A program made the position numbers and the translations under genes. A stretch of DNA of 36,852 nt from Acidobacteriota bacterium (GTDB taxonomy: Bacteria > Acidobacteriota > Terriglobia > Terriglobales > Acidobacteriaceae), in NCBI GenBank assembly GCA_003225455.1, contig QIAB01000056.1:61644-98495 (forward strand), given 5' to 3'. The notes below the pieces were generated by a model that saw only the letters and a program-made list of their open reading frames with translations, did not search any database and was not told the origin of the DNA. Below are positions 677-6,364 of the stretch, in pieces (position 1 is the stretch's first letter; the number at the start of each line of letters is the position of its first letter).

Positions 677-1431
677 ATGACGCACAACTGGTATGCTAGG
701 CGGGTCATGACGCGGGTATTTACTCGAAAATTACTCCTTCGGCTGGGCGCAGCTATTGCCCTGATTTACCTGGTTTTCATCGCGGCCATCTGGTGGGCCA
801 TGCGTCAGCCGCCGGAAACATTCGGCCGGGCCATGTCGCGCATGCCAGGAGTTGCTTACCTACTTCTGCCGTTTGAGACGATGTGGACTCACGCCCGCGC
901 TGGAAATGGAATGCAACGCCAGATTTCTCGCTCACGAAGTTAGACAGATCCGGTACCGTTCAGCTTTCGGCCTTGACCGCGAAGCAACCAGTCGTGCTGG
1001 TATTCGGCAGCTACACCTGACCTCCGTTCCGGCGGGAGGTTCCTGCCTTGAACAAACTCTACGAGGAATATGGGAACCACGTTTCTTTCCTTGCGGTCTA
1101 CATTCTCGAAGCACATCCCAGCGATGTGTGGCAGATGGAAAGCAATGTACGCGACAAAGTGGTGTTCGCCAGCCCCAAAGACTTTGAGGAGCGCGCCTCT
1201 GTCGCTGGAACTTGTGTTCGCAAACTAGGAATCAAGTTTCCTGCCGTGATCGATGGGTTTGGGAATACCGCAGAAAAGGCTTACACCGGCTGGCCTGATC
1301 GGATTTACCTCATCGACAATAACGGACGAATCGCTTACAAGAGCCGGCCCGGCCCGTTTGGATTTAAACCGGAGGAGTTGAAAGCCGCGCTGGGCCGCTT
1401 GCCGCAAACGCAAAGCCGGATTCAGCCCTGA
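677..1431 (+). CDS. Deiodinase-like selenoprotein, TGA-encoded Sec, with a frameshift
   Basis: Seen: frame 1 reads PVVLVFGSYT, then TGA at 1018-1020, then PPFRREVPALNKLYEEYG, and continues unbroken to 1431. Vertebrate iodothyronine deiodinases have the same Cys/Thr-Sec-Pro-Pro-Phe site. The motifs VYILEAHPSDVW and YKSRPGPFGFKPEEL are also those of the T4_deiodinase family (PF00837; thioredoxin fold). TGA is therefore best read as selenocysteine. The N-terminal membrane segment (ALIYLVFIAAIWWAM) and LLPFETMWTHARAG are in frame 2 from 677 or 707. They join frame 1 near 910, where one base seems missing (GGA-AT-GCA, where GGA-GAT-GCA would give GDATPDF). The start is uncertain: neither 677 nor 707 has a strong ribosome site. 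By family it is a thiol/selenol redox enzyme; no iodinated substrate is implied in a bacterium. It may be an inactive gene if the frameshift is real. Confidence 0.82.
1018..1041 (+). promoter_or_regulatory. Candidate bacterial SECIS hairpin after the Sec codon
   Basis: The last base of the TGA starts a perfect 6-bp stem: ACCTCC (1020-1025) pairs with GGAGGT (1035-1040) around the 9-nt loop GTTCCGGCG, and G1019 can wobble-pair with T1041. Bacterial SECIS elements sit immediately 3' of the UGA within the coding sequence and need a G at the start of the apical loop; both are met. The arms also encode conserved residues (PPFRREV), so pairing alone is not proof. Confidence 0.6.
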
Positions 1432-1448: not shown

Positions 1449-3131
1449 CTAATTGGATTTGGCCGCCCTGGTGATTGCCCCTTCCGACGCCGACGAGACC
1501 AGTGCCGCATATTTCGCGAATACTCCGTTCGGATAACGCGGCTCAGGTGGCTTCCATTCCGATAGACGCTGATGCAAAGCCGCGTCGCTCACCTCAATCT
1601 CCAGGACGCGCTGGTTTACATCGATGTGGATAGTATCGTCTTGGTGCACGGCGGCGATTGGCCCGCCGAGCGCAGCCTCGGGCGAGACATGTCCCATCAT
1701 GAGTCCATGCGTGGCGCCACTGAAGCGCCCATCAGTTAGAAGGGCGACCGACTCACCCAAACCTTCGCCGACAATCGCTCCGGTCACACTGAGCATCTCG
1801 CGCATTCCAGGCCCGCCCTTGGGTCCTTCGTTACGGATCACAACAACATCGCCTGGCCGAATTTTCTTTGCAGTCACGGCGGCCATGGCTTCTTCTTCCG
1901 ATTCGAAAACCCGTGCCGGCCCGCGATGACTCAGCCGTTCGTGCCCGCTGATTTTGGCCACGCAACCTTCGGGTGCAAGGTTGCCTCGCAGGATCACCAG
2001 ACCGCCTGTCGCTTTGAGAGGTTTCTCCAAGGGCGCGATGACTTCCTGGCCCGGAGTCTCCTGGGCGCTTTCGGTTTCCGAACGGATCGTCAGTCCTGTC
2101 ACTGTACGCGGTTCAGGATGAATGTGCTTTCCCCGAAGCAAGCGGCGAGCCAACAGGCGCACGCCTCCGGCCCGGTGCATATCGGTGGCAACAAATCGCC
2201 CGGAGGGTTTCAGGTCAGCCAGGAGCGGCGTGCGCTCGCTGACTTCTTGGAAATCGTCAATATCGAGTGGGACGCCCGCCTCGCGAGCAATCGCCAGAAG
2301 ATGTAGGACCGCGTTGGTTGAGCCGCCGGTAGCGGCAACTCCTGCTATGGCATTCTCGAACGCCTGACGAACCAATATGTCCCGGGCCGTTGTTCCGTTC
2401 TTCAAGAGATCCATCACCAGCTTGCCGCAATCAAAAGCAACTTGATCTTTGGCCGGATCCATTGCCGGGACACTGTTGAAGCCCATCGGCGAGAGCCCGA
2501 TCATCTCCATGACCGTAGACATCGTATTCGCCGTATATTGTCCGCCGCACGCGCCCGCGCCCGGGCAAGCAACATTCTCCAATTCGCGCAGGTCATTGTC
2601 AGTGATCTTTCCGGCCGCGTTCGCTCCCACCGCTTCGAAGACGTCCTGAATAGTGACATCCTTGCCCTTGTAGCTTCCTGGCGCAATCGTGCCGCCATAG
2701 AGCACAAGCCCAGGAAGATTCATGCGCGCCAGAGCCATCGCCGCAGCAGGGATAGTCTTGTCGCAGCCGACAACGCAAACCACCGCGTCAAACATCTGCC
2801 CGCGGCAAACCAGTTCGATCGAGTCTGCAATGATCTCCCGGCTCACCAGCGACGCGCGCATGCCCTCGGTGCCCATCGTCTCGCCGTCAGAGATCGCGAT
2901 GGTGTTGAACTCCATCGGCGTGCCACCCGAGGCCCGAATGCCCTCCTTTACCTTGGCCGAAAGCCGGCGCAGATGAAAATTGCACGGCATGGTTTCGATC
3001 CAGGTGTTGGCTACTCCGATGATCGGCTTACTCAGATCGCTGTCGGTGAATCCGACGGCCTTGAACATGGCGCGCGCGCCGGCGCGATCGCGTCCATCGG
3101 TGATACCACGGCTGCGGTGTTTGGGGTCCAT
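1449..3131 (-). CDS. ilvD: Dihydroxy-acid dehydratase
   Basis: Converts 2,3-dihydroxy-isovalerate and 2,3-dihydroxy-3-methylvalerate to the 2-keto acids, the third common step of valine and isoleucine synthesis, in the cytoplasm. At 560 residues it has the normal length. Iron-sulphur ligand motifs are visible: [10 protein letters not shown] near residue 50, [16 protein letters not shown] near 120 and [16 protein letters not shown] near 190; the C-terminal substrate loop is [18 protein letters not shown]. It is the last gene of the ilvC-ilvB-ilvN-ilvD operon, 116 bases after ilvN, and that gap holds an interspersed repeat. It ends 17 bases from the convergent deiodinase-like gene, with no clear terminator between them. 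Confidence 0.97.
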
Positions 3132-3193
3132 GGGAAATGATTATGCCAGAAGGAGAGTTGCGGGTCGCTCGATCTGATGCTTTACGAATACGA

Positions 3194-3224
3194 TGTCATT
3201 CTGAGCGAAGCGAAGAATCTGTGC
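3194..3224 (+). repeat. Interspersed CATTCTGAGCGAAGCGAAGAAT-type repeat
   Basis: The core (TTCTGAGCGAAGCGAAGAAT) has arms ATTCT and AGAAT with GCGAAGCGA between. I recognise it as a short repeat found in many copies between genes in acidobacterial and other soil bacterial genomes. It lies in the gap between ilvN and ilvD, so it is transcribed within the operon. It is the likely source of spurious small ORFs here. Confidence 0.7.
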
Positions 3225-3247
3225 ATCGATACAACAGCCACACACTA

Positions 3248-3571
3248 TTACGCCATCGCGGCACGCGCAGAACCGCCTGCGCCGGCCGAGGCCGGTGGAT
3301 GCCGGGCTGCGTCCCAGCTCTCCGCCAGCTCCATCATGTCCTCCGTAGGAGCGCCGGCGCGAACCTCTACGACATCCACGATCGCATGCCAGTCACGGAA
3401 GAGCTGTCCGATCTGCTTCGTATTAAGTTCAAGCAACAGCGAAACTCTGTGGTTGTACCCGTGAGGCTCAGCCTGGACATAGGGCATCTCGACTCCGCGG
3501 CGCGAAATCGCGTTCAGTATGCGCATTAGTGTGCCCTGCGTGTTGCGATAGTGGACATGAAAGGCATGCAT
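3248..3571 (-). CDS. ilvN: Acetolactate synthase small (regulatory) subunit, ACT domain
   Basis: 107 residues. Residues 1-75 form one ACT domain (FHVHYRNTQGTLMRILNAIS, then VSLLLELNTKQIGQLFRDW), the fold that binds valine and stabilises the large subunit. It is short like IlvM and lacks the second domain of IlvH/IlvN. It is the third gene of the operon, directly after ilvB, which supports the role. The last about 20 residues (PPASAGAGGSARAAMA) are of low complexity and are encoded by a palindromic repeat, so the original C-terminus was probably shorter or different. Confidence 0.85.
   Translation of the reverse strand: MHAFHVHYRNTQGTLMRILNAISRRGVEMPYVQAEPHGYNHRVSLLLELNTKQIGQLFRDWHAIVDVVEVRAGAPTEDMMELAESWDAARHPPASAGAGGSARAAMA
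3281..3295. repeat. GC-rich palindrome inside the ilvN 3' end
   Basis: CCGGCC-GA-GGCCGG (3282-3295) is a perfect inverted repeat of the same style as the hairpin at 3587-3603. It supplies part of the low-complexity C-terminal tail of the ACT protein. Confidence 0.5.
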
Positions 3572-3581
3572 ATAGTTCTCC

Positions 3582-3630
3582 GTAGCGCCGGCCTCTGGCC
3601 GGCTGTGCGACGGGCGTCCGCGCCCGCCGA
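3582..3630. repeat. Double-hairpin palindromic element between ilvB and ilvN
   Basis: Two hairpins lie side by side: GCCGGCC-TCT-GGCCGGC (3587-3603) and CGGGCG-TCCG-CGCCCG (3611-3626). The element fills almost the whole 59-base gap and abuts the ilvB stop codon at 3631. The architecture, with GACGGGCGTC as an arm, is the same as in the element at 32600-32639 inside the amidohydrolase gene. In the mRNA it could act as a stability or attenuation hairpin between the two acetolactate synthase subunits; that is inference. Confidence 0.65.
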
Positions 3631-5325
3631 CTATTCTTCTTCGAACATCATCTCTGACAACGCTGCCCCGGCCGGCACCATTGGGAAAACGTTCGCTTCT
3701 GGATGCGTGTCGAACACTAGCAGCTCCGGCTCGGACGAATTCAAAAAACGATCCAGTTCATCTCCCGTCTCTTGCGACACCGGAAATTCCCGCACGACCG
3801 CTTCGCTAATTCGCTGCCCATGGATCTTGTATGCCTTCGAAATCGCCACGAAATCCGGGTTGTCGCTTAAGTCGGTCTCAGCATAATTGCGCTGATAAAA
3901 AAGCTGCTGCCATTGCCGCACCATGCCGAGATATTTGTTGTCGATGATGACCATCTTGATCGGCAGCCCTAGGCGGTGCACCGTGGCCAGTTCTTGAATG
4001 TTCATCTGGAAGCCGCCGTCACCAGAAACGCAGAGTACGGTCGCGTCCGGTTTTGCCAACTGAACTCCAATCGCCGCAGGCAGAGCGAAACCCATCGAGC
4101 CTAGCCCACCGGATGTTATGAATCCGCGAGGCAGTGACGAGCGGTAGCGCTGAGCGGCCCACATCTGGTGCTGGCCCACGTCCGCCAGAATCACGCTGTT
4201 CTCAGGAAGCCGGCTGAAAAGCTCATCGAGAAACCGAATGGTCGGCTGCGCCAGTCCACGGGGATCGAGCTCCGCGCGCTCTGGGCCGCAGGCGACCGCG
4301 CGCCAATCGCTCCAGTCAGGCAGCTTCACCTGGCGGAGCGCGTTGTGACAGGTGGGAATGGTTTCTGCCAGGTCGCCAATTATCGGCAGCTCACAAGGGC
4401 GCACGCGGTCCAACTGCGCCGGATCGATTTCAAAGTGAACAATGCGAGCATGAGGCGCAAAGCGCGTGGGATCGCCGGTTACACGGTCATCCAGGCGAGC
4501 GCCGAAAACCAGGAGAAGGTCATTCTCATGCAATGCCATATTCGCGGCGCGCGTACCGTGCATCCCAACCATGCCGAGGTAATAGGGGGTTTCAGGCGGT
4601 ATGGCGCCCAACCCGTGCACCGTCGCGAATGCCGGAACCTGCAGGTAATCCAGCAACCGCCGCAGTTCGGCAACCGCGCCCGAAAGTTTTACTCCCGCTC
4701 CCACCAGCGCGACCGGTTTTTTCGCCTGTTCCAGCAGTGTGATCAGCGTCTCTGCGAAAGTCGATTCGCCATGCACATCCGCAGGCTTGGCATGCGGCGT
4801 GAACTTCACCGGCCCAGAGAATTCCATCTTCGCTTTCAGCATGTCGGTGGGGATGTCGATCATCACCGGGCCGGGCCGCCCACTGCGCGCCCAGTGAAAT
4901 CCTTCCGCAATCACCGCAGGAATTTCTTCGATACTCTTGACCAGCCGGCTCCACTTCGTCAGTGCCAGCGTCATGCCAAAGACGTCCGTCTCCTGAAACG
5001 CATCAGTCCCGATAAGAGCGCTGCGCACCTGGCCGGTGATGCAGACCAGCGGAACCGAATCCATCTTCGCATCGGCGATTCCAGTGACAAGGTTGGTCGC
5101 CCCCGGCCCGCTGGTGGCAAAGGCCACGCCAACCTTGCCGCTGACGCGCGCCAAGCCTTCGGCCGCAAAAACCGCTCCCTGCTCGTGGCGGGTGAGAACG
5201 TGCTTGATCCCGCTGCCCTCGAGCGCGTCATACAACGGCATGATCGCGCCGCCGGGATAGCCGAATACCAGATCAACGCCCTCAGCTCGCAAGCACTGCA
5301 GAACGATTTCTGCTCCTCTAAGCAT
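3631..5325 (-). CDS. ilvB: Acetolactate synthase large subunit
   Basis: Joins two pyruvates to 2-acetolactate, or pyruvate and 2-ketobutyrate to acetohydroxybutyrate, using thiamine diphosphate and FAD. 564 residues, normal length. Visible: the N-terminal pyrimidine-binding domain with [16 protein letters not shown] and the catalytic Glu in [13 protein letters not shown] (about residue 48), the middle FAD/DHS-like domain, and the C-terminal cofactor motif [12 protein letters not shown] followed by [11 protein letters not shown]. The ATG at 5325 overlaps the end of ilvC by eight bases, so the two are probably translationally coupled. ilvN follows after the double hairpin. Confidence 0.96.
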
Positions 5326-6364
5326 TCACGACCTTCGCCTCGGGCTTCTGAGCCAATCCGGGCTTCTTGGTGTCTTTCTGCAGCCATGACATCATGCCCC
5401 GCAACTTCGCCCCAACTTGCTCAATCTGGTGCTGTTTTTCTTTCTCTCGAAGCGCGGCAAAATTCTTACCGCCTTTCTTGTTCTCTTCGACCCATTCCTT
5501 GGCAAATGACCCATCTTGAATGCGCGCGAGGATATCTTTCATTGCCTTGCGAGTTTCGTCGCCGACAACTTTTTCGCCGCGAGTCAGGTCACCATACTCG
5601 GCCGTATTGGAAATTGAGTAGCGCATCCGGGCGAGTCCGCCTTCATAAATCAGATCGACAATCAGCTTCATCTCATGGAGGCACTCGAAGTAAGCAATCT
5701 CGGGCGCGTAGCCAGCCTCGACCAAAGTCTCAAAGCCTTTCTTGATGAGCGAAGTCAACCCGCCGCAGAGCACCGCCTGCTCGCCAAAAAGATCACTTTC
5801 GGTTTCTTCTTTGAAGGTCGTCTGCAGAACGCCCGCGCGCGTCGATCCGATCCCATAGGCATAGCAGAGCGCGTATTCGTGGGCGCGGCCGCTGGCATCC
5901 TGATGAATTGCCAGCAGGGACGGCACGCCTCTGCCTTCTGTATAGACGCGCCGCAGCAGATGCCCCGGGCTCTTCGGCGCGATCATGACCACATCAACGT
6001 CTTTGGGCGGAACGATGGTTTTGAAGTGAATGCTGAAGCCGTGAGAAACGCCAAGAATTTTGCCTGCGCGGAGAGCAGGCTTGATCTGCGACTCATAGAA
6101 GTCGCCTTGCGTTTCATCCGGCGTCAGAATCTGAATCCAATCGGCTCGTTTAGCAGCCTCAGCCGGCGGCAACACGGTCATGCCGTCTGCTTTCGCCTGC
6201 TGGGCGCTGGCGCGCTGCGGATCGAGCCCGACAATCACGTTATAGCCACTGTCGCGCAGATTTTGTGCCTGGGCGTGGCCCTGGCTTCCGTATCCAAAAA
6301 TGGCGATGGTTTTGCCCTTCAGGGCTGAAGGATTGGCGTCATGTTCGTAGAAAATTGTGGCCAC
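5318..6364 (-). CDS. ilvC: Ketol-acid reductoisomerase (class I)
   Basis: NADPH- and magnesium-dependent isomerisation and reduction of acetolactate or acetohydroxybutyrate. 348 residues, the class I length. The Rossmann motif [17 protein letters not shown] is near residue 25. [14 protein letters not shown] and the knotted C-terminal domain with [19 protein letters not shown] (metal-binding acidic residues) and [15 protein letters not shown] are all present. The start is GTG at 6364, with AGGAG five bases upstream. It is the first gene of the ilv operon, with its own sigma-70-type promoter and a palindromic operator upstream. The last about 20 residues ([15 protein letters not shown]) are a weakly conserved tail. 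Confidence 0.96.

Follow-up and report, generated by a model that had tools for sequence, protein, structure and literature searches.

Deiodinase-like proteins of bacteria have been in the literature since the Sargasso Sea survey of Zhang and Gladyshev (2005), which reported Sec and Cys forms and suggested a redox role for them (PMC1088965); the GOS study (2008) counted 22 Sec forms (PMC2398784), and bacterial selenoproteins of this kind are also listed in PMC9312934 and PMC13188914. As in these proteins, the PF00837 domain of the locus described here holds Sec or Cys in its active site, and a bacterial SECIS element (bSECIS) directly follows the UGA, but the locus belongs to a soil acidobacterial branch that is membrane-anchored at the N-terminus and has the motif TUPPFRR; moreover, the example given in the recent reviews has UxxC (PMC9312934, PMC13188914), whereas ours has U-P-P-F. 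The first-pass annotation had seen here a good candidate for an undescribed redox enzyme; that the kind is undescribed is not supported, since proteins of this kind have been described since 2005. Our literature search, which covered open-licence papers, returned neither the anchored acidobacterial branch nor the selB-linked pair of selenoprotein genes presented below.

Animal deiodinases carry an N-terminal anchor, as the acidobacterial branch does. With Dio2 and Dio3, the protein shares S-x-T-U-PPF, YxxEAHPSDxW, D...AY and GP, as well as the Ser/Thr/Sec/Tyr/Glu/His network; it differs from them by an identity of about 30% only and by a SECIS of the bacterial type, located inside the coding region. 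Thiol oxidoreductases of the ResA/CcmG type and peroxiredoxins of the AhpE type have the same thioredoxin-like fold (Z 15-18), and ResA has a membrane-anchored arrangement too; unlike them, our protein has no CxxC but a single Sec accompanied by deiodinase residues. We consider it quite probable that the window (the whole stretch of DNA analysed, 36,852 nucleotides of an acidobacterial contig) holds an anchored bacterial deiodinase-like selenoprotein gene in which UGA 1018 stands for Sec and whose product would reduce its substrate by a selenol, the copy in the window being frame-broken.

Locus layout and the frame break

Standard ORF calls return only unrelated pieces here, 852-1187 in frame 3 and 1048-1431 in frame 1, just as anticipated in the first-pass annotation. 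When TGA 1018-1020 is read as a residue, frame 1 of the forward strand, which opens past the stop TGA 874-876, encodes a 182-aa thioredoxin-like domain from 883 to the stop TGA 1429-1431 (883-1431). In this translation, the string VVLVFGSYT-U-PPFRREVPALN spans the TGA, which is residue 46 of the modelled core, and is followed by YILEAHPSDVWQMESN and PDRIYLIDNNGRIAYKSRPGPFGFKPEEL; the deiodinase motifs downstream of U are YILEAHPSDVW and PDRIYLID...KSRPGPFGFKPEEL, and the active-site pieces are FGSYT-U-PPFR and VYILEAHPSDVW. The TGA, thus, does fall at the deiodinase Sec position with the downstream motifs intact, and its placement is far beyond chance, since 57/57 full-core TGA-bearing homologues have it at exactly the same codon.

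The claim that 677-1431 forms a single gene is not supported: the start codon ATG 677 shares frame 2 with the membrane segment, and the catalytic domain is in frame 1. The N-terminal membrane-anchor part (677-940, forward strand), MTRVFTRKLLLRLGAAIALIYLVFIAAIWWAMRQPPETFGRAMSRMPGVAYLLLPFETMWTHARAG, starts at ATG 677 or ATG 707 and ends at TAG 938-940, with homology only up to about 907 (HARAG). When the window and 37 relatives were aligned at the DNA level with MAFFT, one gap appeared in the window, exactly 10 nt long and placed between 907 and 908; in the relatives, the anchor segment RKLL...IWWAMRQPPETFGRxMSRMPGxxYLLLPFETMWTHARAG is in one frame with the catalytic domain, as expected of an intact member of the acidobacterial branch, and in the window the two are not in one frame. 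The membrane anchor noted at first pass is, therefore, real and proper to the family, but in the present assembly its frame is not that of the active site. Programmed frameshifting that would join frames 2 and 1 was considered and rejected: no slippery heptamer could be seen at 899-940, and the bases missing from the window are present in all the others, so we read the break as an indel. Because the lack of these 10 nt parts the anchor frame from the catalytic frame, no anchored enzyme can be made from this copy as it stands in the assembly. The gene is frame-broken in the present assembly, by either a fresh deletion or an assembly error.

Given this break, the window copy may be dead. Indeed, we give a little less than even weight to the copy being a recent pseudogene, in which a real 10-nt deletion destroyed the gene and the product is no longer made. 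The 37 relatives have exactly 10 nt more, frame 2 of the anchor is closed by TAG 938 and, although GTG 883 could start a soluble core, no homologue suggests such a protein. One has to set against this that there is no second lesion, the TGA, the hairpin and the active-site residues all looking intact, and that pN/pS after the UGA is 0.219 between the window and its relatives versus 0.229 among the relatives, so that any loss of the gene would be recent; an assembly or strain-mixture error in a draft of 195 contigs would, besides, look the same.

Further downstream, 17 bp separate the end of the deiodinase-like gene from the convergent ilvD (1449-3131), the first of a row of reverse-strand genes (1449-6364) that continues with an acetolactate synthase-like gene (TPP-dependent) and ilvC; nothing suggests a functional link between these neighbours and the deiodinase-like gene.

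Fold, active site and possible chemistry

With the TGA read as a residue, the catalytic domain matches PF00837 at 104.5 bits for a curated cut-off of 27, and in a genome-wide search (96.8 bits), it is the sole match of the 4.99-Mb, 195-contig genome. The closest solved structures by sequence are mouse Dio2 (3.4e-21) and Dio3 (1.8e-20) according to phmmer, and an AlphaFold2 model of the core (pLDDT 86.4, pTM 0.84) finds the same two as its best PDB matches (Dio2, 9h48, Z 20.3; Dio3, 4tr3, Z 19.4), followed by ResA (17.8) and AhpE (about 15.8). Profile score, T-U/C-P-P-F active site, YxxEAH motif and deiodinase fold all agree with PF00837 membership, and the Tyr, Glu and His of the YxxEAH set vary little or not at all among 69 homologues; the family assignment and the thioredoxin-like fold proposed at first pass, thus, both hold. 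The model NF038285 (deiodinase_rel, 347 aa) is matched by the catalytic domain over positions 181-340 (E 2.1e-58), but the score, 198.4 bits, is under the curated cut-off of 250, with the N-terminal 180 positions of the model unmatched: the window protein does not have the long N-terminal region seen in planctomycete Cys forms. In those planctomycete homologues (L086, L087, L089-L091, L093-L096, L098; GNFTCGPFR), this long region carries DxDxDG-type repeats that look EF-hand-like by eye, and in L086 and L098, the open frame runs on into a further domain.

The roles of Dio3 residues, namely, the catalytic network, the substrate clamp Arg275 and the proton network with His219, are documented (PMC12025243), and we mapped these residues onto the window core through the phmmer alignment. 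Ser167, Thr169, Sec170, Tyr197, Glu200 and His202 are kept, the last three in YILEAH (1099-1116); the Glu and His of the deiodinase site are found in 69/69 homologues, and the Tyr in 68/69. The substrate clamp and the proton-network histidine are not found, Arg275 and His219 being aligned to Pro156 and Pro98, respectively; the resolving-cysteine positions are lost too, with Cys168 replaced by Tyr44 and Cys239 not kept. Proline stands at the Arg275 position in 49/57 Sec forms, and arginine in 11/12 Cys forms. With His219, Arg275, Cys168 and Cys239 not kept, neither the substrate nor the recycling can be that of Dio3, and the loss of the clamp argues against iodothyronines. The only other thiol of the catalytic domain, new with respect to Dio3, is Cys111 (codon 1213-1215), present in 63 of the 69 homologues and a candidate resolving residue.

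From these sequences, we best read the acidobacterial branch as selenol reductases that are anchored in the membrane, probably face the periplasm and would work by chemistry of the deiodinase type. A single N-terminal transmembrane helix would anchor the protein; most relatives have a K/R-rich N-terminus ahead of this helix and, the positive end being inside, the catalytic domain would probably lie outside the cytoplasmic membrane, in the periplasm. The Sec46 selenol, aided by the Ser/Thr/Tyr/Glu/His set common to animal deiodinases, would reduce a small substrate, and the oxidised selenium would then be resolved by Cys111 or by an outside thiol. The invariant deiodinase residue set slightly favours reductive chemistry of the deiodinase type (dehalogenation or a related two-electron reduction) over the reduction of hydroperoxides.

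In a sample of the phylum, 22/297 genomes have a match at E 1e-25, most of them with one internal TGA; no match was found in 50,697 phage records that would point to a phage origin. ORF clustering around about 50 relatives disclosed no functional partner common to them, only partners specific to a lineage. One of these is found at three loci (L109, L110, L114), where selB, an AhpD-like gene and the deiodinase-like gene are consecutive on one strand, head to tail, and apparently form an operon of selB and two selenoprotein genes; the AhpD-like product (TIGR01926) reads NRCPY-U-LDSHAYFLR. selB lies at a similar distance in five more genomes (G185, G071, G128, G168, G174), and the selB/AhpD-like linkage is restricted to this one acidobacterial subgroup. 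In L109, the head-to-tail arrangement covers 2664-5276 plus the next gene. A second acidobacterial deiodinase-like subfamily (L107, L111, L112, L113) comprises three Sec forms and a single Cys form; it is about 40% identical to the window protein, its members being 55-74% identical to one another.

A close rival to deiodinase-type reduction, to which we nevertheless grant rather less than an even chance, is that the same selenoprotein mainly reduces peroxides or hydroperoxides, with Sec46 as the peroxidatic residue and Cys111 or the AhpD-like partner as the reductant. The AhpC-TSA and Redoxin profiles are over their cut-offs too, peroxiredoxins (e.g., AhpE, Z about 15.8) and thiol oxidoreductases (e.g., ResA) are among the fold matches, and the AhpD-like selenoprotein with its CPYU site is encoded just upstream in one subgroup; in mycobacteria, AhpC is reduced by AhpD. 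On the other hand, the core has only half of the peroxiredoxin motif P-x3-T/S-x2-C, with Ser43 at −3 and Leu39 instead of Pro at −7; YxxEAH, the invariant set, is that of deiodinases, and we know of no role for it in peroxiredoxins; no signal peptide is obvious in the AhpD-like protein, although the catalytic domain is probably outside. A bolder version of deiodinase-type chemistry, which we think unlikely, would have the branch act in the periplasm on halogenated aromatics from the environment, as a reductive dehalogenase that depends on Sec (or as another reductase of the deiodinase type). The AhpD-like selenoprotein would be its electron donor, and in some lineages the genes of both would share an operon with selB; if this were true, the branch would be a bacterial counterpart, or the source, of vertebrate deiodinase chemistry.

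Probable decoding of TGA 1018 as selenocysteine

The source genome encodes SelB (385 bits), SelA (543 bits) and SelD, and a tRNA-Sec (70 bits; ARAGORN tRNA-SeC, anticodon tca) is found on the same contig as the window (C132, 99783-99875), 1.3 kb past its end. With selA, selB, selC and selD all present, the absence of this machinery, named at first pass as something that would refute a Sec reading, does not arise. TGA stands at exactly this codon in 57/57 full-core TGA-bearing homologues, and the search for homologues with Cys in place of TGA, suggested at the same time, identified 12. Among them, the acidobacterial L107, from a genome (G055) in which no selB exceeds the cut-off, is 55-62% identical to the Sec forms L111-L113. 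Purifying selection acts on the sequence after the UGA (pN/pS 0.22). A chance or assembly origin of the TGA was discarded, the codon being the same in all 57 of these Sec relatives.

We then looked at 200 sampled genomes of the same family, 58 of which carry a TGA-bearing relative. Among these 58, 48 have selB over the cut-off, compared with 60 of the remaining 142 (Fisher p = 1.4e-7), which makes 108 genomes with selB, or 109 in an alternative tally. Seven of the ten selB-less genomes with a Sec gene are drafts at most 85% complete; in G101, another of the ten, selB is 8 bits under the cut-off and adjoins the Sec gene. G091 and G076 are nearly complete and have a TGA-bearing deiodinase-like gene with no full selB match over the cut-off, G076 having a selB fragment.

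A hairpin of the bacterial SECIS type occupies 1031-1047 (stem GGCGGGA/UCCUGCC, apical loop GGU at 1038-1040). In the family, the stem GGCGGGA/UCCYGCC, of 7 bp, starts 10 nt past the UGA and presents the GGU loop 17 nt past it, a spacing within the published bSECIS limits (PMC13188914). As no Rfam family fits this hairpin (a search of 600-1500 at E 5 gave nothing), it was detected from conservation. Over 27 distinct sequences, the covariation score is 0.381, compared to 0.141 when shuffled and at most 0.218 when slid, and 85.7% of the cells pair versus 70.2% when shuffled; six of the seven stem pairs show two-sided (compensatory) changes. The stem codons are frozen beyond what the amino acids need (CGG 49/49, GAG 48/48, GTT 44/46). 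The hairpin is not kept in the 12 Cys homologues, and it is partly kept in distant Sec homologues, with 1-7 of the 7 pairs, so the same hairpin register is not universal.

The sequence data, thus, strongly support reading TGA 1018 as Sec, as proposed at first pass: the ribosome would decode this UGA by means of SelB, Sec-tRNA and the hairpin. That TGA 1018 might be an ordinary stop between two separate small genes, as the unrelated pieces called at 852-1187 (frame 3) and 1048-1431 (frame 1) might suggest, is extremely improbable and already refuted for the family by the open frame, the family profile, the conserved TGA, the covarying hairpin, the purifying selection downstream and the full Sec machinery.

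The source genome has two selD genes, one with a TGA at the catalytic position (VKAAG-U-ASKL; L019/L118, G000:C106:111022-112032) and a second with Cys (L018, G000:C113:1775-2737), located on a 3.8-kb contig; this second gene could be a paralogue or contamination. It also has an AhpD-like gene with CVY-TGA (L119, G000:C119:840-1262), a further selenoprotein gene. Judging by the SelD VKAAG-U and the AhpD-like CVY-U, the genome appears to use several selenoproteins.

Significance for the deiodinase family

Standard gene callers split or miss this gene, and the frame break in the present assembly must not be overlooked when annotating it. For 20 years, the thyroid deiodinases have had bacterial relatives on record with no function assigned to them; the anchored branch that we describe here is common in Acidobacteria, uses Sec, has an invariant set of deiodinase catalytic residues and is intact in dozens of genomes. 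These intact acidobacterial copies are good candidates for testing the bacterial origin of deiodinase chemistry and the substrates on which it acts.
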